Shown here: positions 42,701-60,600 of the stretch, piece by piece
How positions within the stretch are numbered: position 1 is the first letter of the stretch
Layout: every line of letters begins with the position of its first letter
Source: Verrucomicrobiia bacterium
Lineage (GTDB): Bacteria > Verrucomicrobiota > Verrucomicrobiia > Verrucomicrobiales > DEV007
Direction of reading: 5' to 3'
Length of the DNA stretch: 64,000 nt
Assembly: GCA_030425385.1 (NCBI GenBank)
Contig: JAUIAH010000028.1
Location: forward strand, 1-64,000
The notes under the pieces: generated by a model
Told to the model about the DNA's origin: nothing
Seen by the model: only the letters and a program-made list of their open reading frames with translations
The model's database searches: none
Position numbers and translations under genes: made by a program

Positions 42701-43577
42701 AACCTTTAACCCACTTTGATCTAACGATCATGGTGGCCTGGCATCACCAGATACCACACCTGTCGCAAGGCAGGGAAAGGAAACAACGTGCTCTGACGTT
42801 GTTCGCCTCTGAAACCTCGTTTCCGGGGACACCCAGGCAAACCCAGTCCTGTAAGCGTCGACGCCCTGTTCGGGATCGGCGCTATGTTGGAAGATGGGAG
42901 ACGCTCCCGCCGCGGATGGCAAATGCTCACGCGGCGGTCGGGGGTAGCACCCTGAAGACTCTCCACGCCAAACATCGACAACCGAGGACCAAGGGCAGTC
43001 ATGCAGTGCGAGGCGTTGCCGCCAAGAGCCGCATGGCAGTTGATCGGTAAGAGCGGAAACGGCTTCCAAGCCATCACGTTTCCGCTCAAGTCGCGTAAAC
43101 CGTTCGAGACCTGCCAGCAACAGGCCGGACAAGAGGCGTGTGGCATTCCGTGATCCAAACGATCATGGACCCACCGGACGTGCACGTCTCTCTCAGAAGC
43201 GCCAACTGCACATTGGTCTAACGCAAAGACGCGTCCACGATCATGACGAGAAATGGCTTAATGCCTGGGCACTCACGGGTGCAATCAGGTGGCAAGGGAG
43301 CCCGCAAAGCTCCTGAGCCTCGACGTCACGCCGCACGGTGGGGTAGCCCCCCTTCATGGCCCGCGAGGGTCGACGGTAGGCCGACCGTTGAGTAGTCATG
43401 ATCGCATGGGAGACTCGCCACTCCCGAAAAACAAAGGCAGTCATGTCGTGAGACGTGGTGTGGGCTCCGGCCCTGCCACGTGGAAGAGTTGGCAACGCGA
43501 GGCCCGCAAGCCTCCGCGGTAATCCAACGCACGTCGCGATCGAAACGGGTGGCCTTCTCAACCCGTTCTAACACAAG
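42701..43577 (+). ncRNA. Structured non-coding interval with recurring words
   Basis: Open frames here conflict and show no domains. Paired elements include GCCTGG (42735) with CCAGGC (42832) enclosing AACAACGT/ACGTTGTT and GGAAAC/GTTTCC, a 10-bp hairpin at 43052-43086, CCGCCGCG/CGCGGCGG near 42910, and ACGTGG/CCACGT near 43456. The word ACGATCATG occurs three times (about 42724, 43159, 43238) and GGCAGTCATG twice (42994 and 43436). I read this as several related structured RNAs, possibly decayed tRNA-like units. Confidence 0.45.
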
Positions 43578-43654
43578 CGTGTCGAGGTCGAAGTAGACGA
43601 GATGCGTGCCTTGGAAGCACGAGAAAGCAGGTGCGAGTCCTGCCGACGCGACCA
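43578..43654 (+). tRNA. tRNA-Pro(TGG), non-canonical
   Basis: Acceptor CGTGTCG/CGACGCG, A73, encoded CCA. Anticodon stem CGTGC/GCACG with loop CTTGGAA. T-loop TGCGAGT (G55). The D-arm is short (GTC/GAC) without GG. Confidence 0.87.
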
Positions 43655-43660
43655 ATTTCC

Positions 43661-43735
43661 TGTGGGATAAGTGTTGGTACTTGTCTCGGTCTCATAAGCC
43701 GAGGTTCGAGGGTTCGATTCCCTCTCCCGCAACCA
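43661..43735 (+). tRNA. tRNA-Met(CAT), canonical elbow
   Basis: Acceptor TGTGGGA/TCCCGCA, A73, CCA encoded. Loop CTCATAA. The D-loop has GG (GTTGGT) and the T-loop is TTCGATT, both canonical, unlike most neighbours. The anticodon stem lacks the three G:C pairs of an initiator. Elongator Met or Ile2 cannot be told apart. Confidence 0.93.
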
Positions 43736-43850
43736 TTACATTGCGCAATTCCAGTTGGCGGAGCGCCCGCAAATCACTCGGCGAATGACGCCCCTAGAGC
43801 AGCACTGCTGCTCAAATCCCAATCATCATTCATCATTCATCAATGCCTAG
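43736..43850 (+). other. Intergenic spacer in the tRNA array
   Basis: Contains a short hairpin (gagcagCACTgctgctc) and a simple repeat of atcattc/catcattcat near 43821-43840. No gene seen. Confidence 0.5.
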
Positions 43851-43925
43851 TCTCCTGTGGTGAAACAGTATCACACGGCCCTGTTAAGGCCTGAGTTCTT
43901 GGTGCGAATCCAAGTGGGAGAGCCA
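43851..43925 (+). tRNA. tRNA-Asn(GTT), non-canonical
   Basis: Acceptor TCTCCTG/TGGGAGA with wobbles, G73, CCA. D-stem GTGA/TCAC with loop AACAGTA (no GG). Anticodon loop CTGTTAA. T-loop TGCGAAT (G55). Confidence 0.9.
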
Positions 43926-43949
43926 TTTCATCGCCACAACGATAGAGCC

Positions 43950-44047
43950 GGGAGGGTAAGCCGAGAATCATAGGTCTATCGGCAACTGTCTTGAAAACAG
44001 TCGGTCCTTCAACGGGTGTGCAGGTTCGAGTCCTGTCCCTCCCGCCA
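43950..44047 (+). tRNA. tRNA-Ser(TGA)
   Basis: Class II. Acceptor GGGAGGG/CCCTCCC, G73, CCA. Anticodon loop CTTGAAA. Long variable region. T-loop TTCGAGT is canonical. The D-arm is unusually long (GCCGA/TCGGC) with a 14-base loop. Confidence 0.92.
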
Positions 44048-44060
44048 ACATCCTTTCCAT

Positions 44061-44134
44061 GGTCGCATAGCTCACGTAGGAGAGCGCTAGCCTGAAGAGC
44101 TTGAGGGCAGGGTGCAACTCCCTAGCGGCCACCA
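44061..44134 (+). tRNA. tRNA-Phe(GAA), non-canonical T-arm
   Basis: D-arm GCTC/GAGC keeps GG (loop ACGTAGGA). Anticodon loop CTGAAGA. The T-stem is only four pairs (AGGG/CCCT) with loop TGCAACT (G55). A73, CCA. The 7:66 position is A:A and the 28:42 position is T:T. Confidence 0.85.
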
Positions 44135-44150
44135 ATCTCCTTTCCTTTCT

Positions 44151-44224
44151 TGCCCTGTAGCTCAAAAGCAGAGCACCCGGCCGATAACCGGAAGACCTCG
44201 GAGCGTTACCGAGCAGGGCGACCA
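44151..44224 (+). tRNA. tRNA-Ile(GAT), non-canonical, C33
   Basis: Acceptor TGCCCTG/CAGGGCG, A73, CCA. D-loop AAAAGCA without GG. T-loop AGCGTTA (no U54, G55, no A58). Anticodon loop CCGATAA has C33 in place of the near-universal U33. Confidence 0.85.
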
Positions 44225-44237
44225 CACTTCTAACAGA

Positions 44238-44311
44238 GGTCCATTGGTGTAATAGCAACATGCCTGTCTGTCGAACAGGAGCCACCGGAGCATAACCGGT
44301 ATGGACCGCCA
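44238..44311 (+). tRNA. tRNA-Asp(GTC), non-canonical
   Basis: Perfect acceptor GGTCCAT/ATGGACC, G73, CCA. D-loop AATAGCA. Anticodon loop CTGTCGA. T-loop AGCATAA. Confidence 0.9.
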
Positions 44312-44324
44312 TCTCATTTCAATT

Positions 44325-44398
44325 GTCCTCGTGGTGTAACAGAAGCATGACTCTGTGCGAAGGAGTCGGATCAGGTGCAAATCCTGGCGAGGATACCA
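44325..44398 (+). tRNA. tRNA-Arg(GCG), non-canonical
   Basis: Acceptor GTCCTCG/CGAGGAT, A73, CCA. D-loop AACAGAA. Anticodon loop GTGCGAA (G32), reading CGC/CGU; bacteria normally use ACG here. T-loop TGCAAAT. Confidence 0.85.
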
Positions 44399-44401
44399 TA
44401 T

Positions 44402-44476
44402 GCTGGCCATGATGTAAGAGTCGCATTACGCCCTGTGAAGGCGTCCGTACGGGTGCAAATCCCGTTGGCCAGCCCA
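44402..44476 (+). tRNA. tRNA-His(GTG), non-canonical elbow with G-1:C73
   Basis: The HisRS identity pair G-1 (44402) and C73 (44473) is encoded. Perfect acceptor CTGGCCA/TGGCCAG, CCA. D-loop AAGAGTC (no GG). Anticodon loop CTGTGAA. T-loop TGCAAAT (G55). Confidence 0.92.
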
Positions 44477-44483
44477 CTTTCAT

Positions 44484-44556
44484 GCCTCTCGACCGAGCAA
44501 GTGAACGGCCTGGATTGCAAATCCATGGTCGGTGGGAGCATTACCCACGAGAGGCT
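44484..44556 (+). tRNA. tRNA-Cys(GCA), non-canonical, U73
   Basis: Perfect acceptor GCCTCTC/GAGAGGC. U73 (CysRS identity base) is followed by CAC, so CCA is not encoded. Anticodon loop TTGCAAA. D-arm CCG/CGG with a 10-base loop. T-loop AGCATTA. Confidence 0.88.
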
Positions 44557-44574
44557 CACTTCTATCTAGCAAAC

Positions 44575-44648
44575 GTACCATTCGTCCAACAGCAAGATGC
44601 CTGGCTTCCACCCAGGAGACGCCGGGGCAGCACCGGCATGGTACACCA
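44575..44648 (+). tRNA. tRNA-Gly(TCC), non-canonical
   Basis: Perfect acceptor GTACCAT/ATGGTAC, A73, CCA. Anticodon arm CCTGG/CCAGG with loop CTTCCAC. T-loop GGCAGCA, the same as in tRNA-Trp. Weak D-stem, no GG. Confidence 0.88.
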
Positions 44649-44659
44649 GTTTCAACCAA

Positions 44660-44763
44660 CAGCCGCCGTCGCAAGGAAGGCAGATGTCTCTGGGAAGGGG
44701 AATCATCACATCTGTCAGCAAATCGTCTTGAGGATGGTCATGGTTCAAAGACGGCGGCGGCTG
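44660..44763 (+). ncRNA. Candidate Y-RNA-like structured RNA inside the array
   Basis: The ends pair over 11 bases (44660-44670 with 44750-44763, one three-base slip). Inside, CAGATGT (44681-44687) pairs with ACATCTG (44708-44714). About 104 nucleotides with end-pairing is the size and shape of Ro-associated Y RNAs, and a Ro60-like gene lies 1.8 kb downstream. The identity is inferred from shape and context only. Confidence 0.5.
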
Positions 44764-44814
44764 ACGGGCCGAGACCGGATTCCCCACAAGCGGAATCCTG
44801 CCAGCATTCAAAAC

Positions 44815-44885
44815 GGGGGATTAGTTCAATAGAAGAACACCTGTCTTACAAACAGGAGGCGGTGGAGCATAACCACCATTCCCTA
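44815..44885 (+). tRNA. tRNA-Val(TAC), non-canonical
   Basis: Acceptor GGGGGAT/ATTCCCT, A73, then CGC so no encoded CCA. D-stem GTTC/GAAC with loop AATAGAA. Anticodon loop CTTACAA. T-loop AGCATAA. Confidence 0.88.
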
Positions 44886-44903
44886 CGCCTTTTCGAGATT
44901 CAC

Positions 44904-44977
44904 GCGGCATTCGTTCAATAGTAGGATACGGGTATGCCAAGCCTGAGACCCCGGAGCGTTACCGGGATGCCGCACCA
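44904..44977 (+). tRNA. tRNA-Gly(GCC), non-canonical
   Basis: Perfect acceptor GCGGCAT/ATGCCGC, A73, CCA. D-loop AATAGTA. Anticodon loop ATGCCAA. T-loop AGCGTTA. Confidence 0.88.
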
Positions 44978-44985
44978 CATTCCAT

Positions 44986-45073
44986 ACGAGGTGCTCCCAC
45001 AGCGGCCTTCTAAGCCGCCGACATCAAACCGTGGGCAGGAAGTCAGGAGGTTCGAGTCCTCCACCTCGTGCCA
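44986..45073 (+). tRNA. tRNA-Arg(TCT)-like, D-arm replaced
   Basis: Perfect acceptor ACGAGGT/ACCTCGT, G73, CCA, canonical T-arm (loop TTCGAGT) and a good anticodon arm GCGGC/GCCGC with loop CTTCTAA. There is no D-arm. Instead CCCAC before and GTGGG after the anticodon arm can pair, enclosing it. 88 bases. Confidence 0.75.
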
Positions 45074-45099
45074 ACGCATCACTTAAATCAAATTTCCAC

Positions 45100-45176
45100 G
45101 CTTCTGTAGCTCAACGGACGAGAGCGTCTGGCTTCGAACCAGAAGGTTGTAGGTTCGAATCCTACCAGAAGTGCCA
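45100..45176 (+). tRNA. tRNA-Arg(TCG), canonical elbow
   Basis: Acceptor GCTTCTG/CAGAAGT, G73, CCA. D-arm GCTC/GAGC with GG. Anticodon loop CTTCGAA. T-loop TTCGAAT. Confidence 0.93.
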
Positions 45177-45201
45177 GTCACCGAAGCATCAACTTTCCAA
45201 T

Positions 45202-45277
45202 TCCTCCGTGGCCGAGAAAGAAAGGCACTCCTCTCGTAAAGGAGCCCATGCCGGTGCAACGCCGGCCGGAGGATCCA
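45202..45277 (+). tRNA. tRNA-Thr(CGT), non-canonical
   Basis: Perfect acceptor TCCTCCG/CGGAGGA, T73, CCA. D-loop AGAAAGAA without GG. Anticodon loop CTCGTAA. T-loop TGCAACG (G55). Confidence 0.88.
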
Positions 45278-45288
45278 CTTTAAACGTC

Positions 45289-45361
45289 GCTCGCGTAGCC
45301 CAATAGCAGAGGCCACCGACTTAAAATCGGTTCAGTGCGGGTGCAACTCCCGCCGCGAGCA
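45289..45361 (+). tRNA. tRNA-Leu(TAA) with short variable loop
   Basis: Perfect acceptor GCTCGCG/CGCGAGC, A73, then GCA (no CCA). Anticodon arm ACCGA/TCGGT with loop CTTAAAA. The variable region is only TCAGT, although bacterial tRNA-Leu is normally class II. T-loop TGCAACT. Confidence 0.87.
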
Positions 45362-45367
45362 GCAAAC

Positions 45368-45444
45368 GGCCATGTAGCCCAACCAGCAGAGGCGCCGGTC
45401 TTAGAAACCGGAGGTTGTGGGTGCAAATCCCACCATGGCTACCA
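45368..45444 (+). tRNA. tRNA-Leu(TAG) with short variable loop
   Basis: Acceptor GGCCATG/CATGGCT, A73, CCA. Anticodon loop CTTAGAA. Variable region AGGTT, class I length. T-loop TGCAAAT. Confidence 0.9.
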
Positions 45445-45455
45445 CTTTCCTTGGA

Positions 45456-45629
45456 TCACGCTTCCAACTCAGCCCCATCAGGGCGATCAGCCATCGACGG
45501 CCGTTTCCCGGCAAGGGAAAGGAGGGTCTGCACGCCAAAGTAAGCTCCAATGAGCATCAAAAGCGGAACAAACACGACACTTAGGAAGACTGTGATATCT
45601 ATGAAAAGCTGTTTAATTTCGGGATGCAT
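45456..45629 (-). CDS. Possible 57-residue single-pass membrane protein
   Basis: An ATG on the minus strand (45629-45627) opens a 57-codon frame with one strong membrane helix (FLSVVFVPLLMLIGAYFGVQTLL, about residues 15-37). A basic then acidic tail follows (GKRPSMADRPDGAELEA). It sits in the largest gap of the array and is opposite in strand to every tRNA. Small one-helix proteins inside accessory islands are often toxins or regulators, but nothing proves that here. No Shine-Dalgarno. Confidence 0.5.
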   Translation of the reverse strand: MHPEIKQLFIDITVFLSVVFVPLLMLIGAYFGVQTLLSLAGKRPSMADRPDGAELEA

Positions 45630-45738
45630 GACTATCGATTGGGAGGATCACTGTCTAAGAGCACGATGATGGCATGAAAGTCACGTACTTTTGTAGTTAT
45701 TCTCATACAAGCTCTCGCGTGTTCCGAAAAGTTTAGAG

Positions 45739-45814
45739 GGGCGCCCATGTTCCAAAGGGGCGATGCTGCCTTGCAAGCAGCGTGTGGCGGGTGCAAGTCC
45801 CGTGGCGTCCACCA
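45739..45814 (+). tRNA. tRNA-Ala(TGC), non-canonical elbow with G3:U70
   Basis: The AlaRS identity pair G3:U70 is present (45741 with 45808). Acceptor GGGCGCC/GGCGTCC, A73, CCA. Anticodon arm GCTGC/GCAGC with loop CTTGCAA. T-loop TGCAAGT. D-arm degenerate. Confidence 0.9.
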
Positions 45815-45835
45815 ATCGCAGACCCGCTCATTTCG

Positions 45836-45928
45836 GGAGTCTTAACCGGGCAAGCGTACCGGCATCGTCTGCTAAGCGAATGGTCCCACCCATCGTGGGA
45901 TGGGGTGCAAGTCCTCAGGACTCCGCCA
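45836..45928 (+). tRNA. tRNA-Ser(GCT), non-canonical
   Basis: Class II with variable arm TCCCAC/GTGGGA. Acceptor GGAGTCT/GGACTCC, G73, CCA. Anticodon loop CTGCTAA. T-loop TGCAAGT. D-stem CCGG/CCGG with loop GCAAGCGTA. Confidence 0.88.
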
Positions 45929-45937
45929 ATTTAACTC

Positions 45938-46013
45938 AGGCTCGTAGCTCAAACAGTGGAGCAGCGGTCTTTTAATCCGCTGGGTGAGAGTGCAAGTCTC
46001 TCCGAGCCTACCA
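45938..46013 (+). tRNA. tRNA-Lys(TTT), non-canonical
   Basis: Perfect acceptor AGGCTCG/CGAGCCT, A73, CCA. D-stem GCTC/GAGC with loop AAACAGTG. Anticodon loop CTTTTAA. T-loop TGCAAGT. Confidence 0.9.
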
Positions 46014-46041
46014 CTTTCCGCAATTGCTTGGAAGCTTGGAG

Positions 46042-46117
46042 TCCCCTGTGGCAGAAATAGTAATGCGCCGGCCTTTGAAGCCGGAGTGTGTGGGTGCAAG
46101 TCCCTCCGGGGGTGCCA
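46042..46117 (+). tRNA. tRNA-Gln(TTG), non-canonical
   Basis: Acceptor TCCCCTG/CGGGGGT with an open 1:72 (T:T), G73, CCA. A weak first pair is typical of tRNA-Gln. D-loop AAATAGTA. Anticodon loop CTTTGAA. T-loop TGCAAGT. Confidence 0.88.
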
Positions 46118-46125
46118 CTTTGTCA

Positions 46126-46200
46126 GTCCCTGTAGTGTAGTGGCCAGCACGACAGACTTTCGATCTGTAGTCGCGGGTTCGATTCCCGCCAGGGATGCCA
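46126..46200 (+). tRNA. tRNA-Glu(TTC), canonical elbow
   Basis: Acceptor GTCCCTG/CAGGGAT, G73, CCA. D-arm GTGT/GCAC with loop AGTGGCCA. Anticodon loop CTTTCGA. T-loop TTCGATT. Confidence 0.94.
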
Positions 46201-46261
46201 CATTTCCAATGAGTCAATGGATGATCGATGATGCCCTCTTCGATCATGTGATCTCGCATTG

Positions 46262-46336
46262 GTCCGGGTCGTTCAATAGTGAGGACGTCGGTCTCTGAAA
46301 CCGAAGATGATGGTGCAACTCCATCCCCGGATGCCA
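46262..46336 (+). tRNA. tRNA-Gln(CTG), non-canonical
   Basis: Acceptor GTCCGGG/CCCGGAT, G73, CCA. D-loop AATAGTGA. Anticodon arm TCGGT/ACCGA with loop CTCTGAA. T-loop TGCAACT. Confidence 0.9.
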
Positions 46337-46347
46337 CTCAAGAACAA

Positions 46348-46423
46348 AGGTCCGTAGCTCAACAGTGAGAGCAACCGCCTCTTAAGCGGAAGGTTGCGGG
46401 TGCGAATCCCGCCGGGCCCACCA
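46348..46423 (+). tRNA. tRNA-Lys(CTT), non-canonical
   Basis: Acceptor AGGTCCG/CGGGCCC with 1:72 A:C, A73, CCA. D-loop AACAGTGA. Anticodon loop CTCTTAA. T-loop TGCGAAT (G55). Last tRNA of the array, 146 bases before the Ro-like gene. Confidence 0.89.
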
Positions 46424-46569: not shown

Positions 46570-48351
46570 ATGCACCCTAACAACACACTCTCTCCCGAAT
46601 CTCTTGGTCCAGCCGAGAAACTCCTGGATTTGATCATCAACTTTCCTGATCACCTCTGGCACCACCGCCCCGGCGTGATCGTTGAGGGCAAATGGCGCGC
46701 GGCTCGCCCAGAAGAGATTCGCACGTTTCGAACGCAGGGACGTCTCCGCGCGGGAACGTTTCGGCCGCCTGGCCCTAACACCGAAGCCATCGAGCAGGTA
46801 TACGCGACGCTTGGCGACATCTGGCAAACGAACAACGATCTGGCAGCCCGCTTAGCTTCCTATGTGATGCATCACACGGATTGGCGCGACATGAAAGTCG
46901 TTTGCGCAGCCTTCATGCTCGTGCAATCACGCTGTGGCCAACCCGTGACCGAGGACCTTCATGGCGAACGCCATGTTCTCTTCCACGATGACGATTTCCG
47001 AGAAATCGGTGAAGCCATGGTCAAGGCCTACGAGCGTGGTTCTGCGAAGATGCTGAACCCGAAACTGATCCGGCGAATCGGTGATGTGTTAGCGCTTCCT
47101 GGCGTCGTAGAAATCAATCGTCTGTTAGGCTTCGGCCACGCGCAGAAGCGCAAGCCCTTCACTGGCCGCTATGACAAAGCGGTCCGCGACTGGCTGGCCT
47201 TTCGCGAGGCGAACCCTTCGCTTCTCGAGGGACTCCGCAAAGGCGGCTATGCGTCTACGGTGCGCGTTCTCGCCCGAAGAGTGGGTTACAAGCCCAAGTC
47301 ACAAGCCTTCTTTGAAGCGCTGGCCTGGCCTCAGAAGCAACACGCGAACGGTCACCGAACAATTGGCCTTGAAGGCTTACAGATCCACAAGATCTCGTTT
47401 GAGGGACTCACCGAAACGCAGATCTGTGAGATCATCGATCGTGAGACGCTGGGGTGGAAACAGGTCATGGGGCTTTTGCCCAAAGACATCGGTCTGACGC
47501 CGGCGATCTTTGTCGCGCTGATTGATAGGATGTCTGACAAAGACCTCGTGATTCTCACCCCAACCCTTGACGAGTTCCAACTGCTCAAGCATGCTCCCAT
47601 CCGGGAGCGTTGGGAAGCCGCCCTACGCGGACAAGAGGATCAACGCGCACGCAACGTGGCGAAGAACCTGAAAGATCGCGAAACGGCATTAGCGCTAGAG
47701 AATGCGGCCGATGGAGTTGTCACCAAGGCCGTGCAAGAAGCCACGAAAGATCGTGATGTTCACGTCATGTTCCTCATCGACGTCAGCGCCTCTATGGAAG
47801 GCGCCATCGCGCTTTCTCGTGAAGCGCTCTCGATGATGGTGCAAGGGTTTCCGCAAGAGAAGCTCTACATCTCGTGCTTCAACACGGTGGGCAACTGGCT
47901 CAAACCACGCCACTACTCAGCAGCGGGCATCGCACACATGCTAGGGCACGTGCGCGCCGCAGGCGGGACCAACCACAGTGTGGGTGTGCAAGTGTTCCAG
48001 ATGAATCGTGTTCGGATTCCCCAAGACGCGGAGTTGATCCTCTTCGTCGTCGGTGATGAAGCAGGCGAATCGGGACGTCAGTTCGCCCGGGCCATACGGG
48101 ATTCCGGCTACCATCCGACCGCCTTCGCCCACATGGTAAACGTGGCGCCCGGTTGGGCCCGTGGATCCACCGTGCGAGATGCGGCTTCCGAACTCGGCTT
48201 GCCTTACACCGAAGTCGTCGTGGACCAGTTCTGCGATGTCTATCAAGTGCAACGCACGCTTAAAGCAGTGCTCGAAGCCACGCCTCATCGGACGGGAATC
48301 TCGCTCGTAGAGAAGATCCTCCAGACCGAGTTGCTCGTGAAACCTTACTAA
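46570..48351 (+). CDS. Ro60/TROVE-like RNA-binding protein with von Willebrand A domain
   Basis: 593 residues. The N-terminal about 390 residues are all-helical, as in the HEAT-like ring of Ro60 proteins (segments around LAARLASYVMHHTDWRD and LGWKQVMGLLPKDIGLTPA). The C-terminal vWA domain (about 400-590) has the metal site DVSASM, a later GGTNHS and VVGDEAGE. Ro proteins bind misfolded RNAs and Y RNAs and feed RNA decay or repair. The array ends 146 bases upstream on the same strand. The overall order matches Ro family proteins, but sequence similarity in the ring is weak, so the family is inferred. Confidence 0.68.
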   Translation: MHPNNTLSPESLGPAEKLLDLIINFPDHLWHHRPGVIVEGKWRAARPEEIRTFRTQGRLRAGTFRPPGPNTEAIEQVYATLGDIWQTNNDLAARLASYVMHHTDWRDMKVVCAAFMLVQSRCGQPVTEDLHGERHVLFHDDDFREIGEAMVKAYERGSAKMLNPKLIRRIGDVLALPGVVEINRLLGFGHAQKRKPFTGRYDKAVRDWLAFREANPSLLEGLRKGGYASTVRVLARRVGYKPKSQAFFEALAWPQKQHANGHRTIGLEGLQIHKISFEGLTETQICEIIDRETLGWKQVMGLLPKDIGLTPAIFVALIDRMSDKDLVILTPTLDEFQLLKHAPIRERWEAALRGQEDQRARNVAKNLKDRETALALENAADGVVTKAVQEATKDRDVHVMFLIDVSASMEGAIALSREALSMMVQGFPQEKLYISCFNTVGNWLKPRHYSAAGIAHMLGHVRAAGGTNHSVGVQVFQMNRVRIPQDAELILFVVGDEAGESGRQFARAIRDSGYHPTAFAHMVNVAPGWARGSTVRDAASELGLPYTEVVVDQFCDVYQVQRTLKAVLEATPHRTGISLVEKILQTELLVKPY

Positions 48352-48449
48352 CAATCCTTCAATCTTACCTTAGGCACATGCCGGGGCGGAGAATCGGCTC
48401 CGTCCCGGCGAACACGACTCTTTCCTGCGGGATGCAATCGGCCGGAAGT

Positions 48450-48525
48450 TACAAGCTAGCTCATTCGGTAGAGCATCTGATCAGAACTCAGAATGTGGTT
48501 GGTTCGAATCCAACGCTGATACAAA
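48450..48525 (+). ncRNA. tRNA-like element with defective acceptor stem
   Basis: D-arm GCTC/GAGC with canonical GG and T-arm GTTGG/CCAAC with canonical TTCGAAT. The anticodon stem TCTGA/TCAGA has loop TCAGAAC (C33). The acceptor TACAAGC/GCTGATA has two internal mismatches and there is no CCA. It lies between the Ro-like gene and the next gene and reads as a tRNA mimic rather than a working tRNA. Confidence 0.55.
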
Positions 48526-48588
48526 CACTTCTCTCCACTCGCATCCCGCAGACTCTTTCCTCAGAACGCTAACGAAAACCACGACACC

Positions 48589-49413
48589 ATGAACTACACC
48601 GCCTTTCTCCAAACAGGGATCCAGGAACAAATCCTCCCCTACTTCGAAGGGAAGACAGTGTGTGACCGCGAGCGCACCTATCGCTTGCGTCAACGCCTTG
48701 CTCCCGGCTGGTATCGCTTTCACATCTCGGGACGTTACGCAGACGCTCTCAGCCCTGCCGATTCCGATGCGGAGACCTGGAGTCTGCGCACGACGCAAGG
48801 CTACATGGTCCAGGATCGACTGATCACACAGACGCAGTCCGAGAAGCTTCACGGGATTCCCGTAGACGAGCATCTGCCTCGATTCGCGCCCGTCGTAGCG
48901 TGGCGCTGGTTTGATGGCCACCTGTTCTTCGCCCATCAAGCCTTTGAAACGGAAGTCGACCTCGCCGTCCGCATCGCCTACGAAGATGAACTAGCCATCA
49001 CCGCGATCAAAGGTGTGACGCCAGCACTGGCTCAGGCGTTTGTGTTAGAAACCGCGCGACGCACCTTGCAACGAGAACTCGCCGCACGCCAGCGTCAGGA
49101 AAGCATTCTCCGCGATCAACGGAAGGCCATACGGCGTGCTCACACCACGCTGCAGGATCGCCTCACTCTGGCACTCGCACATTCGGGAGCCCAGCTCATG
49201 GATTTCCGATCCGCACAGGGCACAGAAGTGGTGGTTCGCTACCGGCTAGACCGCCAGCGCTACGAATGCGTCGTCGACACCGAGTCCCTTCAGATCCTCG
49301 ATGCTGGCATCTGCCTGGAAGGCGCGGACCGGGAGCTCAGCCTCTCGAGCCTCCCCTCTGCCGTCCGTGAAGCCTCACAAAGCGGCGAACTCCATGTCTT
49401 TCGGCATGGCTAA
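48589..49413 (+). CDS. Unknown protein of the Ro/E1-like operon
   Basis: 274 residues. The N-terminal half is beta-rich with aromatic residues (APGWYRFHISGRY, APVVAWRWFDGHLFF). A strongly charged helical or coiled-coil segment covers about 155-195 (ARRTLQRELAARQRQESILRDQRKAIRRAH). The C-terminal part is beta-rich with RYRLDRQRYECVVDTESLQILDAGICL. No signal peptide, so likely cytoplasmic. I recognise no family. Its position between the Ro-like gene and the small Gly-ending/E1-like pair suggests a role as an E2-like or adaptor partner, but no catalytic Cys motif is visible. Confidence 0.75.
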   Translation: MNYTAFLQTGIQEQILPYFEGKTVCDRERTYRLRQRLAPGWYRFHISGRYADALSPADSDAETWSLRTTQGYMVQDRLITQTQSEKLHGIPVDEHLPRFAPVVAWRWFDGHLFFAHQAFETEVDLAVRIAYEDELAITAIKGVTPALAQAFVLETARRTLQRELAARQRQESILRDQRKAIRRAHTTLQDRLTLALAHSGAQLMDFRSAQGTEVVVRYRLDRQRYECVVDTESLQILDAGICLEGADRELSLSSLPSAVREASQSGELHVFRHG

Positions 49414-49439: not shown

Positions 49440-49679
49440 ATGAAATCAGCAACGATCAACATCACCTATCAAGGCCTCAGCGCCAACTACCTCACCCCAC
49501 TTCCCAAGAACGCGAGCGATGCCATGATTCGACGTGTCTGTGAGGAAGCGATCCGCGGCGGCGAGGTACCAGAGCTTCCTCGCGCCATTCCCGCCAACGC
49601 CTTCGCCGCTCACGTGGTGGACCGCTTCCAGGGCGCCAAGAACCAGTTCATCGTGCGCCCGCAAGTGCCGTTCGGCTAA
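49440..49679 (+). CDS. Small protein ending in Gly, possible ubiquitin-like modifier
   Basis: 79 residues. An N-terminal strand (SATINITYQG) leads to a helix (DAMIRRVCEEAI) and a final strand ending NQFIVRPQVPFG. Small beta-grasp proteins ending in Gly next to ThiF/E1 proteins are the usual layout of prokaryotic ubiquitin-like or sulfur-carrier systems. Here the terminal residue is a single Gly rather than Gly-Gly, so the assignment is tentative. The E1-like gene begins 22 bases downstream. Confidence 0.65.
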   Translation: MKSATINITYQGLSANYLTPLPKNASDAMIRRVCEEAIRGGEVPELPRAIPANAFAAHVVDRFQGAKNQFIVRPQVPFG

Positions 49680-49701: not shown

Positions 49702-50283
49702 ATGAAGATCACCATCTGCGGCGGGGGAGCCCTCGGCTCTCACGTCCTCTACCTGTCCCGCAGCCTCTCCAATGCTCGCTTTGGAGTCATCGATAACGAC
49801 CGCGTGGAGACGAAGAATTTGGCAGCTCAATGGTTTGTGAAACCGATGCTCGGCAAGAACAAGGCCACCGCCCTGAAGTTGCAGATGGCCAACTTCTTCG
49901 GCTGCGCGATCGATGCCTCCCCTGTCCGACTCAGCAAAGTGAACATGCAGGAATTGTTAGGGTCCACCGATCTCGTCGTTGATTGTTTCGACAACGGCGC
50001 TAGCCGCCAGTTAATTCAGGACTTTGTCAGAGAAACGTCCACACCCTGTGTCCACGCGGGGCTGGCAGCGGATGGGACCTTCGGAGCCGTCCGCTGGGAC
50101 CGCGACTTCGTCATCGATCACGAACCGGTGGAAGGACAGGCCACCTGCGAAGGAGGCGCGTTTCTGCCTCTTATCGTGCAGGCGTCAGTGTCTTTAGTCG
50201 AAGCGATTCGCACGTTTCAAACGGAGCGTTCCGAAACCAACTGGAACATCCGACCAGGGAGAACGGAGAAGCTCGAAACGTGA
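49702..50283 (+). CDS. ThiF/E1-like adenylyl-transferase
   Basis: 193 residues from ATG 49702; the longer open frame from 49534 overlaps the small gene and is not needed. The Rossmann ATP site is GGGALGSH (residues 6-13). E1-type residues follow: IDNDRVETKNLAAQWF, the Lys in LGKNKA, and the acidic VDCFDNGASR. It would adenylate the C-terminus of a small modifier. It lacks the zinc CxxC pairs of ThiF/MoeB, and the catalytic Cys is uncertain (CVHAG or ATCEGG). It resembles the compact E1-like proteins of plasmid PRTRC-type clusters. Confidence 0.83.
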   Translation: MKITICGGGALGSHVLYLSRSLSNARFGVIDNDRVETKNLAAQWFVKPMLGKNKATALKLQMANFFGCAIDASPVRLSKVNMQELLGSTDLVVDCFDNGASRQLIQDFVRETSTPCVHAGLAADGTFGAVRWDRDFVIDHEPVEGQATCEGGAFLPLIVQASVSLVEAIRTFQTERSETNWNIRPGRTEKLET

Positions 50284-50739
50284 GACAACTCCGAAGGGGC
50301 GACATTCCTGTCGCCCACCTGTGGGTTTACCTAACAGAAGGAAGCGAAGGGAAACGTGTCAGTCTTCGTTTCCTTTGCTGCCTTCTGTTAGACCCTCACT
50401 AGCGAGCGCTTGGGAGAACACTATTTCTTTCCAATGCTCTAGCCGAGGAGATCCTATCACTGCCCGAGGTCATCGCACGCGATTTCGATGAGCAATTCTG
50501 CGATGGACGCCCGCGGCTTCGTTTAGAGCTTTACTCGCAGCATGGGCTTGCCCCCCTTACCGGGATTCTTCTCAGCATATCGCAAGGCGCTTCCTGATGT
50601 CGTGATCCAAGTGCGCAACGGCACCGGTGATCTTGACCATTCCTTTCATTCTAACAAACCACTTTCGGTAGCCTGCGGCCTGGAAAGCATCCTGGAAAGG
50701 TCCCGCGTATCGGTCCCGGAAACTACGGGGACTTCAAAT
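50284..50739 (+). other. Hairpins and possible coding remnant
   Basis: GGGCGACA/TGTCGCCC forms a hairpin near 50297-50316. A 61-base near-perfect hairpin fills 50331-50391 (CTAACAGAAGG with its complement, then AAGGGAAACG with its complement). From 50400 to 50597 an open frame without a start codon reads AEEILSLPEVIARDFDEQF and similar protein-like sequence, possibly a fragment of a lost gene. Confidence 0.45.
50331..50391 (+). ncRNA. Long hairpin after the E1-like gene
   Basis: 11-bp outer stem (50331-50341 with 50381-50391), an internal loop, then about a 10-bp inner stem and a 10-base loop. No T-run follows, so it looks like a processing or structural element rather than an intrinsic terminator. 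Confidence 0.55.
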
Positions 50740-50813
50740 CCTCCAGTAGCTCATTGGTAGAGCATCTGACTCATCATCAGAAGGTAGCTGGTTCGAATCC
50801 AGCCGTACATCCA
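50740..50813 (+). ncRNA. tRNA-Met(CAT)-like element without acceptor pairing
   Basis: Canonical D-arm (GCTC/GAGC, loop ATTGGTA), anticodon arm TCTGA/TCAGA with loop CTCATCA, and T-arm GCTGG/CCAGC with TTCGAAT. The seven bases before T8 (CCTCCAG) do not pair with CGTACAT on the 3' side. CCA follows. It shares the D-arm and anticodon stem with the element at 48450. A tRNA mimic or relic; a working tRNA is unlikely. Confidence 0.55.
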
Positions 50814-50984
50814 TTCGTTTGGCGACGCGGCCTGCGTTGCCTCGCGCAGCGCAACCGTGCGTGGTGCCTTGCAAAGTGGGCCTCTCGGGCGCGGCCGATG
50901 CCTCGTCTGGAAACAGACAAGGCGTTTCCCCTGCCATGACGCCCGCTTTCCGCATGCACGGCGGGGTCTGCGTCGCCAAGCGAA
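50814..50984 (+). ncRNA. Candidate 171-nt structured RNA with paired ends
   Basis: 50814-50828 pairs with 50970-50984 over 15 positions (one G:U). Inside are GTTGC/GCAAC and a hairpin GCCTcGTCTG-GAAA-CAGACaAGGC with a GNRA tetraloop (about 50907-50930). It begins right after the tRNA-like element and ends 50 bases before the slipin gene. A closed terminal stem joined to a tRNA mimic recalls bacterial Y RNAs (YrlA type), but this is shape-based inference. Confidence 0.55.
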
Positions 50985-53758: not shown

Positions 53759-56700
53759 ATGAGAGATCCCAAGACAACCATCGGACTAAATCAGGGCTAC
53801 ACCCCAGAAGGCAAGGACACCCAAACGATCAAAGAATACGTCAATTTGAAGCTGGCCGCCCGCGGCTTCAGCATCGTTGGCGACGAAGCGGACTTTCCCT
53901 TCCTTGAGATGGGACGTTCGCTTCTGGCAAATTTCCAGGAGCGGATGCGTCTGTTGTCCGATCGTCTGGCGCCCGTGGATCAGCGGATCGATCAATTCCT
54001 CCGCGACTACCTGACAGGCATCCCGGACGACATCTTTGACAAGGACACGCCGCGAATTCCTAACAATGCTCTTATCCTAGAGAAGCACGGCATTGCGCGG
54101 ATGCTCAGTTTGCCTGCCAATGAGGATCGCTTCACGTCTGACATTGTCTCCTCTTTCCGCGTGGACCAGGGAGTCATTCACAATCCGGCAAAGGATCGAC
54201 GTACGACCAAAGGCGTCTTCCATGTGACGGAAGGTGGGTTGCCCATTCCAGCTGACAAGAAGGCCATTCCCAAAGTGACCTTTGCCCACCTGCTTAAAGC
54301 CGCTCTGAATCCGCCAGAATCGCTGCTCACCGTACCCTATACGGTCAATCAGGAAAAGCCTGCCCACGCGTTTCTAGGCCTCCTCCTCCGCCCTATCGTC
54401 ACTCCCGAGGTCCCTGGCATTCATCCACAACGCAGCATGGAAATGCGTTTCTTTGCCCCAGGCAACCTCGTCAGCAATCTCGACTTTGTGGAATCGATCT
54501 TTGGCAATGCAGGCGATCCCTTTCTTCCGGAGAATAATGCCGCCCTGGATTCGGAACAGTGGACCGGGCACACGGGGTGCGCCATCCTCGCGCCCCATCT
54601 CATCTATTTGCGCAAGAAAGATGTGGGCCTACCCCACATCAACGACGCCACGGATCGCCAGAAACGCGACGGCATGTGCTGGGAGAATGAGGACGAACTC
54701 TACAATGATGGCGGCGCTTTCAAGATCACCTGCCGCGACAAGACCGGCGTGATGGTGACCATCATTGCCGATAACTACTTTGGCTACTGCAAGAAGGAGG
54801 TGAAGACCCAGATCAGCTACGCCGCCAATTTGTTAGGCAACGCCGAAGAGGAACATGCGGGGGGCGCCATTGCGTTTCCTTGCTTTGATCATGGCGAATA
54901 CTTTGCCCTCAATCGTCGCGACTCCGCGCTCGACCATTCTTATGAAGATGCTCTTAGCATTCTCGGCGATTCGGCCGATGTGCGCCCCGAGGGATACGCC
55001 ATCGACAAGCGATTTCCCGAGATCTTCTATGTGAGTGAGAACACCGAGATCGATCTCCATCAGCAACGGGTCACGTGGACAGACAGCCAGGGCATTGAGC
55101 ATGAAATGCGCCTCCGCCCCAATGGGCACTATGTGTATCCGTCAGGTTACAAAGTCTCCATGAGGCAGCCCATGGAGGGAGCGCGTTGGCGCTTGGTGGG
55201 CACGCAGGCAGAAGGCACCTTCTGTCATAAGCCCTGCACGGTATCCGGTGGAGGGAAATCAGAGATCTCCAAATCGCTCGCCGATGCGATGAATTCCGGT
55301 CCTGTCATCATCCCTAATTTCCACTCGGTGATGGAGAAAGTGAAAGAGGTCTTGGAACGCAATTACTGGGATCGTTATCCCAATCCGCGCAAGAATGCCG
55401 AGGAGAGCCGCTCCATTCTCGATACCAAACGCTCTCTTGGCTCCGTGCTACGCCTTCTGACGCCGCACGAAGAGTGCACGGATGAGCACAATCAATACAT
55501 CAGATCGTTGCCAAAGGAGGTCATTGAAATGGCGCTGATCATCAAGCGTTTCTACAAAGACGACTGGGGTGATTGGGATCAATGGCATCACCGCTTCAGC
55601 GTTGATGTCATTGATGGTTCACCGGGTTATGAACTCAAGTATCAGAATCAACTCCTGCTGAATCGTTATCTCCGCGTGGGTTATGATCCTCAAGGCGGTG
55701 CCTGGCGCACCTTTCGTCTGCGCAAAGACTTTCTCCCTGCGCAAAAGCTGCAACGAGAAGATGATATTTCGGCGAGCATGGTGCTTCCCGTCAGCGGTGA
55801 TGATGGGCTCCACCCCGAGCTGCCGGCGGGCACTTACAAATTCATCGCCAACTGCGAATGCCGTTTCTTCCAGCGTCCCGACGACGCCATCCATCGCGGC
55901 TATGATAAAGTGACCGAACAAGACTTTTCCAAGCCAGGAAATTTCTTCTCCAACTACGAACCCATCACTCGGGAGCAGGCCCGCAAGATGGTGGCGGATA
56001 CCATCCGCTTTGGACATTTCACCAAGCCAGTCAAACGACGTATTCGCGCCTTTGTGAAAGCGGATTCGCCCGAGTATGTGGCCTCGCCAGACCAGCCGCG
56101 TTTGGTCGAAGGCAAGCCGTCCAAGAACCCACGCTATTTGCAAGACCGCCTCGATCTTCACGATGAGGAGGGCGAATACTTGGCAGATGTCGGCATGCGC
56201 CTTTATCGACGCTTGCCCGCGGGCAAGCCAGCACTCACGCCCGTGAATGCGGTCCTCCCCGGCAGACGCAACAATCCCCCCAATGTCGACCAGGGCATCC
56301 GCGCGCTCGCCGTCTTTAATCCTATCCATTACCAAGAGCTGCCTGAGCTCTTTATGGACTTCATTGCCAGCCTGACCGGCAAGTCGCCCTCGACGACCGG
56401 AGCGGGATCAGAGGGCGCCCTCACTAAAGGCCCCTTCAATGCGCTCTTGCCCATTGTGGACCTGAATAACGCCCTCTTGGCTTTCATTCTCACCAAACAA
56501 GCTTGTTATGTCAGCGCCGCTGCCTATATCGGCCCCAAATACCGGGTGGACCATGATATCAGCCTCCTGGTGCCAGAAGTATGGTCGCGTATGCACATCC
56601 GCGAACGCGATCCGCAGCATTTGATCGAGCACGGCATGCTCGAACTCTGTGAGGACTTCGAGCATCAAGGCAAGACCGTGCTTGCGAGCCGCTTGGGCTA

Positions 56701-57241
56701 CCGCATCACGGAGAAATTTGTCGATCGTTTCTTCGGACGTCTCTTTAGCGATCCTTTATCAGTCTTTCCTGAAGAAATGCTCCGGCCCGAGAAGCAAGAT
56801 GCAGACGCTTTCGCTGATGGCGTGGCCAATATCGTTGAAGCGCAACAGCGGGTGGCCAAGCTCTATTTCGATGACCAAGCCGTCCGCGATGCCTGCCCGC
56901 CTCTCAAAGCCCTGCTCACTATCATGGCCCATGGCGATTGCGATGGCATGACGGCGACTAGTCCTGAATTGCGTGCGCTCTTTGACTATGACGCCGTCAT
57001 TGAGAGTGATTGGTATCGCCACCGTCTCGCCGCCAAAGTACAAGTCGACGCTCAACTCTGGCGACGCCATATCGAGAACTTGCAGAATTTCTCACGACAA
57101 GGCGTCTACCAGAAAGAGATCGAACGCCTCGGCATTCAATCCCGATTGGAAAGCGCTCGGCTTCACCTAGCAAAGGTTGAAAGCACTGAGTATCTCGAAT
57201 CGCTGCGAGGAACGATTGGAGCCGACCCGTCCGTTGTATAA
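53759..57241 (+). CDS. Giant cytoplasmic enzyme, possibly PPi-type PEP carboxykinase
   Basis: 1160 residues with no signal or membrane segment. Stretches such as ITCRDKTGVMVTIIADNYFGYCKKEVKTQ, EEEHAGGAIAFPCFDHGEYF, HKPCTVSGGGKSEISKSL and SGYKVSMRQPMEGARWRLVGT look like a well-conserved enzyme. The length and glycine/serine-rich phosphate-loop-like GGGKSE fit the roughly 1100-residue PPi-dependent phosphoenolpyruvate carboxykinases known from Propionibacterium and Entamoeba. I am recalling that family rather than comparing sequences, so treat it as a lead. Confidence 0.8.
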   Translation: MRDPKTTIGLNQGYTPEGKDTQTIKEYVNLKLAARGFSIVGDEADFPFLEMGRSLLANFQERMRLLSDRLAPVDQRIDQFLRDYLTGIPDDIFDKDTPRIPNNALILEKHGIARMLSLPANEDRFTSDIVSSFRVDQGVIHNPAKDRRTTKGVFHVTEGGLPIPADKKAIPKVTFAHLLKAALNPPESLLTVPYTVNQEKPAHAFLGLLLRPIVTPEVPGIHPQRSMEMRFFAPGNLVSNLDFVESIFGNAGDPFLPENNAALDSEQWTGHTGCAILAPHLIYLRKKDVGLPHINDATDRQKRDGMCWENEDELYNDGGAFKITCRDKTGVMVTIIADNYFGYCKKEVKTQISYAANLLGNAEEEHAGGAIAFPCFDHGEYFALNRRDSALDHSYEDALSILGDSADVRPEGYAIDKRFPEIFYVSENTEIDLHQQRVTWTDSQGIEHEMRLRPNGHYVYPSGYKVSMRQPMEGARWRLVGTQAEGTFCHKPCTVSGGGKSEISKSLADAMNSGPVIIPNFHSVMEKVKEVLERNYWDRYPNPRKNAEESRSILDTKRSLGSVLRLLTPHEECTDEHNQYIRSLPKEVIEMALIIKRFYKDDWGDWDQWHHRFSVDVIDGSPGYELKYQNQLLLNRYLRVGYDPQGGAWRTFRLRKDFLPAQKLQREDDISASMVLPVSGDDGLHPELPAGTYKFIANCECRFFQRPDDAIHRGYDKVTEQDFSKPGNFFSNYEPITREQARKMVADTIRFGHFTKPVKRRIRAFVKADSPEYVASPDQPRLVEGKPSKNPRYLQDRLDLHDEEGEYLADVGMRLYRRLPAGKPALTPVNAVLPGRRNNPPNVDQGIRALAVFNPIHYQELPELFMDFIASLTGKSPSTTGAGSEGALTKGPFNALLPIVDLNNALLAFILTKQACYVSAAAYIGPKYRVDHDISLLVPEVWSRMHIRERDPQHLIEHGMLELCEDFEHQGKTVLASRLGYRITEKFVDRFFGRLFSDPLSVFPEEMLRPEKQDADAFADGVANIVEAQQRVAKLYFDDQAVRDACPPLKALLTIMAHGDCDGMTATSPELRALFDYDAVIESDWYRHRLAAKVQVDAQLWRRHIENLQNFSRQGVYQKEIERLGIQSRLESARLHLAKVESTEYLESLRGTIGADPSVV

Positions 57242-57607: not shown

Positions 57608-60600
57608 ATGAATAGGTTTTTGATTATCGTTGCGCTGATAGCTCCTTCGGTTGGAATCTGCGCGCCAGGAGACTTGCTCTGGGAAAAGCAACTTGCCCAA
57701 GAAAGCATCATCACTAGCCCGGCCATCGATGACGATGGCAATCTGTATATCTGCTCGATCGACTACCTCCACGCGGTTGATAGCAATGGCAATGATCTTT
57801 GGAAATATCACGCGGATGGAATCTTACGCGGGCCTGCCCTGCATGCTGCTGGCAATTCTCTCTTTGTCGCGAGTCAGGAAGGAATGATCCACGCTGTGGA
57901 GCAAGATAGCGGCAAGCGCTTATGGACATTTGAAGGGGGGAAGCCTTTCCGGAGCAATCTGACAATCGGCTCAAATAGCACTTTATTCGCAAGCGATTCA
58001 GGAGGGACTGTCTTTGCGCTTCGTACCAGCGATGGATCTATCGTTTGGGAAACCGTCACTCAAAGCTTTGGAGCCACCATCGTCGTTGATCGTGATGGTC
58101 GGCTGTATGCAGGTGGCGACATTGTTCTCACAGCCCTTGATGCTGCAAATGGGGAAGCAATCTGGGAGCTTCCTTTTTCATTTACGGAGTCCATTTTTAC
58201 CGATATCGCCATTGGGAATCGTGCTCTCTATTTTGGCGGGCCTCGATCCCTCTTTAGTGTAGATAAAGATTCAGGGAAGCCAAACTGGACACTCGGAGAT
58301 TTCTTCTCTGATTGGTCGTCACCTACAATTGGCCCTGGAGGAACGCTGTATATTGCCGGGCAGCGACATCTTCACGCTCTCGATGGAGATACTGGGACAT
58401 CCATTTGGAAGACTCCTATTCATGGGTTGACGTTCTCGGCGTGTCCTGCTGTGACTACTGGAGGTATTATCTATATAGGATCGAGAAATGGGATCAAGGC
58501 TATTGAGGCTGAAGGTGGCGCTGAGGTTTGGAGTCACGCACTCGATGATGATCTTGAGGCAGGCGTCGCCGTCGGCGCAAACGGAACCGTATATATCGGT
58601 TCCGAGTCAGGGAAGCTTTATGCTTTTGAAGGTGACAATCCTCTAGCCGAGGGAGGGTGGCCCAAGCAGAACCGGGATTTGACGAATTCGAATTCGGCAC
58701 TTGCTGACGGCAGTCCCTTACAAATCCACGATCAATCGCGCGATCAGACGGTGATTCACGGTGATTCGGTTCATTTCTTTGTTTCTGCGTCAGGTGGAGA
58801 ATCTCTTGACTTTCAATGGTATCACAATGGGAATCTGTTGGACGGCGAAACGGCTCCAGACCTGCGCATTCCTATCTTCGAGGAACGCCACATAGGCAGT
58901 TATGAGGTCGAGATGCGATCTGGGAATACCATCCTGCGAGGAGATCCTTTTGAAGCTAAATTGGCGTTTCGAGTAACTACCCGAGTCGTGGGCCGAGGAT
59001 CAATCGATATCTCCGATGCGATTGTTCCTGCGGGGAATAGTCTTGAGCTGACGGCCACTGCAGCTGAGGGCTATGTGTTTGAGGGTTGGACAACGTCGAC
59101 CAGAGGCGGTAGCTTCATCTCAGATACACCCATCTTGCACCTTGTTCCGACTTCCACCATGGAGGTGATTCCTGTTTTCACGCTTCCGGTTGGAGAAGAA
59201 CGTTGGAGGCTTCGAGTCGGCGACGCTATTAATGGCTTCCCCGCAGCTTCTGTTCAAGGAGACCGCGTCTTTATTGCTTCTGGCAATGATATAGTGGCGG
59301 TTGATGCAACGACTGGAATCATCGCATGGCGGCATCAATTTGATCTCGCTGTTGTAGCGGTTTCAGTCGGCGCAGACGAAAAGGTGTATGCTCAATTGGC
59401 CGATGGAAGATTGGCGACTTTAGATCCAAATGGGAAGGTTCTTTGGAAGACGAGCCATGAATTGACGTCAATTCCTGCCATAGGTGGCAATGGAAACGTC
59501 TATGGCGGTATCAAGGACGAGTTCGTGTCACTTTCCAGTATGGAGGGCCTGGAGAATTGGAGAATCAAGTTCGAATCGCAGGTGCTTTCGCAGCCAGTTT
59601 TACGTGAGGATGGGAAGCTGATTGTCAGTACGGATTCGAATCGAATCTATGTCCTCTCAGCGTCTTCAGGGGAGATTCTGAACAGATTACTCGGAGGAGC
59701 CGTTCCTTTTGAGACCCCATCTTTAGCCATTGACGGGGATCAGGCTGTTTTTCAGTTCTCACCATTGAATGCTTCCATGACGAAGTATGCGCCTGACCTG
59801 ACAAAGATTCTTTGGTATGACAATCTCCATTTTTCTAGGCTCTATACGGTTAATCCGATCGGTGAATTGAGTGGCATTGGTTTCCCGAACGACTCCACGT
59901 TGCTTAGCTACGATACCGACCTCCCTGACAATCGATCACCAGGGATCGGCTGGGGAACGGTCAGCTTCACCTCTTCATATGGCTATGGGTTGATTGATCG
60001 ACAATTAGTAACCTATTCGATTGAAACTGGGAACGAAGTCGCTCGTCGACGACTCACTGGGGAAGTTAGGGATTTTTATGGTTCTCCCGTCGTTGCTGGC
60101 GACGGCACGGTAGTTTGTGCGAGCACGGACGGCTGGCTCTACGCCGTCTCTGGGGAGGAAGCTCTCGCGGTGAATGGGTGGCCAAGGGTCCGAGGCGCAG
60201 GCAATCGTGGGTCTAATGAAGTCGTTAAGGGTCCTCCGAGCGTTGTTCCTATTCGTCAAACCCTATCCCTTGAATCTGAAGGACCGACTACGATCACTGT
60301 GATTGTCCGAGGGCAGCGGCCGATAGACTATCGTTGGTTCCGAGATGGCGTGGAGCTGGAAGCCACTGTGAGTTCACTACAGGTGGAACAACCTGGAAGT
60401 TTCACGGTTGAGATTCAGAACGCTCTCGGCGTGGCTCGAAGCGAGCGAGTGGTAGTGACCCCCGAGATCAAACTAGACCTGACGATCGAAGGGGATGGCC
60501 AGGTGAGCCGATTCCCTTTCATCCATGAGGAGACGGGAGCGCCCGCTCTAACGCTTCATGCCTTCCCTGAAGATTCCTTTCTTGGTTGGGAAGGAACAGT

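Follow-up and report, generated by a model that had tools for sequence, protein, structure and literature searches.

The question raised by this locus is whether a putative RNA element at positions 50740-50984, in which a tRNA-like body is followed by a strongly structured domain, is a bacterial Y RNA. The element lies in a 64,000-nt stretch of DNA from a Verrucomicrobiia bacterium (contig JAUIAH010000028.1; the whole stretch is called the window here), and it was flagged in a first-pass annotation because bacterial Y RNAs join a Ro-binding stem to a tRNA-like module and a Ro-like gene lies about 2.4 kb upstream. We found that this gene is, as judged from sequence profiles and a predicted fold, a divergent Ro60 homologue, and that a convincing candidate Y RNA, the best of the locus, is encoded next to it at 48425-48551. 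The flagged element itself is probably not a Y RNA. Taken together, a Ro60/Y RNA module of phage type is likely to lie downstream of a tRNA array here, with the RNA at 48425-48551 acting by tRNA mimicry and the flagged element being an acceptor-less paralogue.

The Ro60 gene and the candidate Y RNA beside it

The gene at 46570-48351 encodes a 593-aa protein with an alpha-helical N-terminal part and a vWA domain that has a DxSxS motif. It ends 2.39 kb before the flagged element, in agreement with the first-pass annotation. Pfam searches gave only weak vWA matches for this protein, and Pfam TROVE (PF05731) matched neither it nor its relatives in two phages. A relative is present in Virus Rctr197k (36% identity), and more distant ones are found in huge phages, namely LR756511 (595 kb) and viral contigs L152 and L158-L162. 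Scanning viral contigs with the window Ro60 alone, or with a two-sequence alignment (A1), recovered no relatives; a search with the pattern GTCCCCNAN{6,14}TTACAAAC returned mostly noise, yet it included a true relative, L136.

A nine-member profile retrieved human RO60 as its top match in the PDB (E 1e-7), together with TROVE proteins (3e-7), and the match extended from the helical part of the protein into its vWA domain. The 13 best Foldseek matches in the PDB to the model of the relative from L158 (predicted local distance difference test, pLDDT, 75) were all Ro60/TROVE proteins, starting from 1.3e-11. The model matched Ro60/TROVE over its whole length, with template-modelling (TM) scores of 0.5-0.65, and Ro60 of Thermus phage phiLo (9l5y) was among the matches. 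The ring of helical repeats with a vWA domain that characterizes the Ro60/TROVE fold was thus predicted for L158, and it is carried to the window protein by a profile-profile comparison of the window clade with the other phage clade (E 1.8e-20 over 441 columns), in which the two profiles had no sequence in common. A first comparison (A10 against A7) was circular because A7 includes the window sequence; it was set aside and repeated without that sequence, and only the repeat is used.

The candidate Y RNA starts 74 nt past the Ro60 stop codon, about 2.3 kb upstream of the flagged element, and consists of a tRNA-like body enclosed by the RNA's own 5' and 3' ends. The terminal helix (S1) has 11 Watson-Crick pairs, between 48425-48435 and 48541-48551. 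An inner stem (S3) pairs GGAAGU at 48444-48449 with ACUUCU at 48527-48532, at the same offsets as in relatives, and an ACUC motif (48537-48540) stands immediately ahead of the S1 3' strand. A UACAAGC motif (48450-48456) doubles as the 5' strand of the tRNA-like acceptor, forming five of seven pairs with 48515-48521. Within this RNA, ARAGORN calls a 'tRNA-Ser' at 48450-48522, and Rfam scores the body as a tRNA at 44.7 bits. The body is probably not able to work as a tRNA, because it has C in place of U33, two acceptor mismatches and no CCA. A counterpart with matching layout is present in Rctr197k (L007 21967-22099).

The stem that pairs the ends and carries the tRNA-like module is supported by covariation in relatives. 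From related phages we derived a descriptor that combines the S1 helix, ACUY just 5' of the S1 3' strand, S3 at fixed offsets and UACA at the start of the tRNA. It matched 56 elements, distributed over 12 loci of which most are phage, and nothing in 12 shuffled controls. There was exactly one match in the 42-52 kb region of the window, at 48425-48551, and one in the 19.5-kb Rctr197k locus, and both coincide with helix-enclosed tRNA-like bodies. All stem positions of the 56 elements are filled by several pair types; the second S3 pair, for example, is C-G in 25, G-C in 18, A-U in 10 and U-A in 2. RNAalifold was run on 15 elements whose enclosed tRNA has the normal order, the window's element among them; 15 of 19 pairs showed compensatory changes, and UACA and the CU of ACUY were invariant. 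The tRNA field of LR756511 contains 13 copies of GUCYCCNA...UACAAAC on one strand and none of the reversed pattern, and every copy accepted by the descriptor is paired to another strand starting after ACUY.

Y stems and tRNAs in related phages

The stems occur in several layouts. In layout A, which includes the window, L007, L009 and others, the stem surrounds a tRNA-like cloverleaf in normal order. In layout B tRNAs carry the stem as a hairpin insert, placed between the D arm and the anticodon arm (L009, L158, L162, L159 and L154). Excising the hairpin yielded a tRNA by ARAGORN in 9 of 22 cases over all loci, compared to none of 100 random excisions; the other 13 are not proven tRNAs, because excision restores none there. 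In layout C the stem surrounds a circularly permuted tRNA (L176 14228-14725; L174 27-188 and 13310-13460; L009 10352-10499; L152 5690-5835; and L154). Ten re-joinings were tried, and all eight in which the descriptor found the arms gave an ARAGORN tRNA; none did in native order. Because layout C has the order of the Rfam YrlA model, the family, which is seen here in very large phages, is a divergent kind of bacterial Y RNA that occurs in many copies. Some permuted tRNAs have ACCA after the acceptor and others have an acceptor capped by a GCAA tetraloop; the former appear able to become tRNAs, and the latter appear to be mimics.

A bare stem-loop is also present in some loci. In two huge phages an S1/ACUUG/CC(A)AC hairpin is followed at once by the Shine-Dalgarno region of the Ro60 gene (L009 13908-13945 and L162 9955-9980), a hint that Ro60 may control its own mRNA there. 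The tRNA fields of Ro60-bearing phages also contain group I introns (L158 3974-4172 and 4977-5164; L159 1369-1558).

In the window, the 11-bp helix, the ACUC internal loop and the second stem would form a putative Ro60 binding site, with this stem holding out the tRNA-like body. Because the body is unlikely to function as a tRNA, mimicry is the most likely mechanism: by analogy with known Ro60-Y particles, we infer that the Ro60-Y particle offers a tRNA look-alike to a protein that acts on tRNAs (a nuclease, modification or processing enzyme), which it may tether or decoy. A site behind a tRNA array would suit the protection or processing of element-encoded tRNAs.

Several points weigh against this account. 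Used by itself, the window-clade Ro60 profile retrieves only vWA domains in the PDB, so the window protein is tied to Ro60 by way of the other phage clade. That clade's profile alone is also weak against the PDB (TROVE 0.018), and because single-clade profiles are weak, the sequence link needs both clades together plus the L158 fold. The AlphaFold model of the window Ro60 is poor (pLDDT 54) and was left out of the fold search. The window Y RNA falls below the Rfam YrlA gathering score and is rated a poor tRNA. The 56 elements were chosen for pairing, so the evidence lies in the variety of pair types and in the controls without hits. Finally, we infer both the transcription of 48425-48551 and its binding by Ro60. 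A broader reading, which we regard as unlikely, is that in huge phages and related islands a divergent Ro60 is accompanied by a repertoire of Y stems (as many as 13 in a single tRNA field, placed around tRNAs, around permuted tRNAs or between D and anticodon arms), that Ro60 helps to mature or store phage tRNAs, and that the flagged element is one more, rearranged member of this repertoire.

The flagged element

The tRNA-Met-like body described in the first-pass annotation, with D, anticodon and T arms and no acceptor pairing, was confirmed. Rfam tRNA (RF00005) matched 50746-50803 at 47.7 bits (E 1.4e-7). Because the match covers only model positions 7-64 of 71, both acceptor strands are absent. 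The D-arm lies at 50749-50763, the anticodon arm (CAT) at 50765-50781 and the T-arm at 50787-50803, so that the body spans 50749-50803, and in the best register only two of seven acceptor pairs form. A functional tRNA at 50746-50804 is not indicated, as there is no seven-pair acceptor stem and no CCA in the expected place. The domain that follows (50814-50984; 171 nt) is closed, as had been described, by a 15-bp helix (50814-50828/50970-50984, including one G-U) and has a GNRA hairpin inside (GTCTG-GAAA-CAGAC, 50905-50918). It folds with a z of -6.9, and when windows of 180 nt were slid along the 64 kb, the stretch closed by this helix gave the lowest z of all 425. There are two helices of at least 15 bp, with at most one G-U and a span of 80-250 nt, in the window and none in ten order-1 Markov controls; the other is at 1093-1188 (96-nt span). 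The domain sits 50 nt ahead of the start codon of an SPFH gene, and it has no homologues beyond 25-33 nt in phages, plasmids or 191 related genomes. A scan for promoters and terminators found nothing above chance.

The Y RNA reading suggested in the first-pass annotation held in part: it was right about the locus, where a candidate Y RNA lies beside a Ro60 homologue, but, as far as the tests reach, it picked the wrong RNA. Two features of bacterial Y RNAs are present at 50740-50984, a Ro60 gene nearby and a tRNA-like module. The stem from paired ends that should carry the module is not: the 15-bp helix stands entirely downstream of the module, and no helix pairs the two flanks of the body around it. 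The element has no ACUY, UACAAAC or inner stem, and the descriptor picks up 48425-48551 instead. The flagged body is identical to the Y RNA body (48457-48513) at 47 of 57 positions, compared to 40 for the best tRNA of the array in this comparison within the window. Because that match is the closest in the window, the flagged body is most likely an acceptor-less copy, or paralogue, of the tRNA-like module of the Y RNA, without its stem and beside an unrelated structured domain. The flagged locus is most simply read as a duplicate of the module, now missing its acceptor and stem, next to a one-off structure before the SPFH gene, and we do not expect the element to bind Ro60.

The flagged body could also be a decayed tRNA-Met gene of the array, with the 171-nt domain an unrelated structure in the 3' or 5' untranslated region of an adjacent gene. 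The next tRNA past the ThiF gene is a tRNA-Met(CAT) in the Rctr197k and LR756511 loci, and both the position of the domain before the SPFH start codon and its lack of homologues fit this explanation, which we consider possible but doubtful. The loss of the acceptor alone from a body with intact D, anticodon and T arms would be odd for plain decay, however, and the body is nearer to the Y RNA than to any tRNA of the array.

That same resemblance to the Y RNA body would also fit a reading of 50740-50984 as a second, rearranged Y RNA with its body 5' of the Ro-binding stem and the 15-bp helix as the Ro60 site. Such a reading would draw on the strong structure of the domain, on the flexible position of the stem across the RNA family and on the fact that Y elements come after the ThiF gene in L165, L172, L174 and L176, which is the place of the flagged element in the window. 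It nevertheless seems quite improbable, since the element is without the family motifs, the inner stem and a descriptor match, no relative has a stem wholly 3' of the body, and the domain offers no homologue for covariation. The 15-bp terminal inverted repeats, 171 nt apart and adjoining tRNA-like sequence, also recall the insertion of a miniature inverted-repeat transposable element next to a tRNA, and three further copies of one arm, each with a single mismatch, are present in the genome. Those copies have no partner arm and no similarity past 16 nt, there is no target-site duplication, and no second copy of the element with both terminal repeats was found. This explanation is largely refuted already, and we rejected it as highly improbable. 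An acceptor-less copy of the Y RNA module remains our preferred reading of the flagged body.

Setting of the locus and comparison with known systems

The Ro60 gene is followed by genes for a conserved module protein E (48589-49413), which adjoins Ro60 in related phages, a 79-aa conserved module protein C (49440-49679) and a ThiF-family adenylyltransferase (49702-50283; Pfam ThiF 3e-20; PRTRC_ThiF 1.5e-10, under its cut-off). The order Ro60-E-C-ThiF is found in nine window-clade Ro60 loci and is incomplete only in the short L166 and L173. Carriers of the module are Rctr197k, a contig of a Kofleriaceae metagenome-assembled genome and viral contigs of 436, 452 and 200 kb. Upstream of the Ro60 gene is a tRNA array (43578-46423) with more than 20 tRNA matches, several with poor acceptors, headed by a GOLLD-like RNA (43131-43564; RF02032, 91 bits, E 6e-23, under the gathering score of 150). 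The genes, RNAs and RNA parts of the Ro60 locus described here and above, from this RNA to the 171-nt domain, lie on the forward strand.

Within the array, 44669-44755 is by eye an end-paired stretch (GCCGCCGTC/GACGGCGGC) that has no tRNA-like body and no ACUY motif. A strong hairpin with 23-nt arms, 87% complementary, follows the ThiF gene at 50331-50391. Two very large proteins are encoded downstream (53759-57241, 1160 aa; 57608-61990, 1460 aa), and the former has no Pfam or NCBIfam match. The contig (the window plus L180-L182) has ordinary bacterial genes, including those for S-adenosylmethionine synthetase and an AcrB-type pump, so the island with the tRNA array, Ro60 and ThiF appears to be integrated in a chromosome and not to be a free phage. 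Open reading frames in L181 resemble, by eye only, IMP dehydrogenase and xylose isomerase.

Neither Ro60 nor YrlA-like RNA is new to phages: Ro/TROVE proteins have been reported in jumbo phages (PMC7824862), and YrlA in phages has been mentioned (PMC7765460). Among the titles and abstracts that literature searches on permuted tRNAs with phages, and on Ro60 and Y RNAs with phages, brought up, none describes the present RNA family. Because this Ro60 family escapes Pfam TROVE and the RNAs escape Rfam, the system is probably under-counted. For background on known Y RNAs we drew on these reviews, the two cited below and the Rfam YrlA model. In Deinococcus, a Y RNA tethers Ro60 to PNPase (PMC8058203, PMC7790460), and the tRNA-like domain of YrlA has been proposed to be a competitive inhibitor of anticodon nuclease (PMC7790460). 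Y stems mixed with tRNAs, whether inside tRNAs or around permuted ones, are natural variants for testing the tRNA-like part of bacterial Y RNAs, and could distinguish a tether, an anticodon-nuclease decoy and a step of tRNA maturation.

The ThiF protein and a JAB protein in LR756511 recall the PRTRC cassette, but no NCBIfam PRTRC match was above cut-off, and the E and C proteins had no PRTRC match at all. RtcB was found neither in the six phage records searched nor on the window's contig. Both tRNA-like bodies score as tRNAs in Rfam; they differ from tRNAs in the missing acceptor stem of the flagged body and in the U33, CCA and acceptor defects of the Y RNA body. Identity to Ro60/Rsr of known structure (D. 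radiodurans 2nvo, human 9nen, phiLo 9l5y) is about 12-16%, and the window protein is missed by PF05731 and is encoded with E, C and ThiF genes, whereas the predicted L158 fold and a DxSxS motif in the vWA domain that resembles a metal ion-dependent adhesion site are shared with them. The window Y RNA differs from YrlA (RF02553) in its normal tRNA order, its other stem motifs and the lack of an RF02553 match, and the phage family differs in its many copies per genome and in the layout with stems inside tRNAs. Like YrlA, however, the candidate Y RNA lies beside a Ro60 gene and carries a tRNA-like module on a stem formed by the RNA's own ends, and layout C of the phages has the T-arm, capped acceptor and D-arm in the same order as the Rfam YrlA model.
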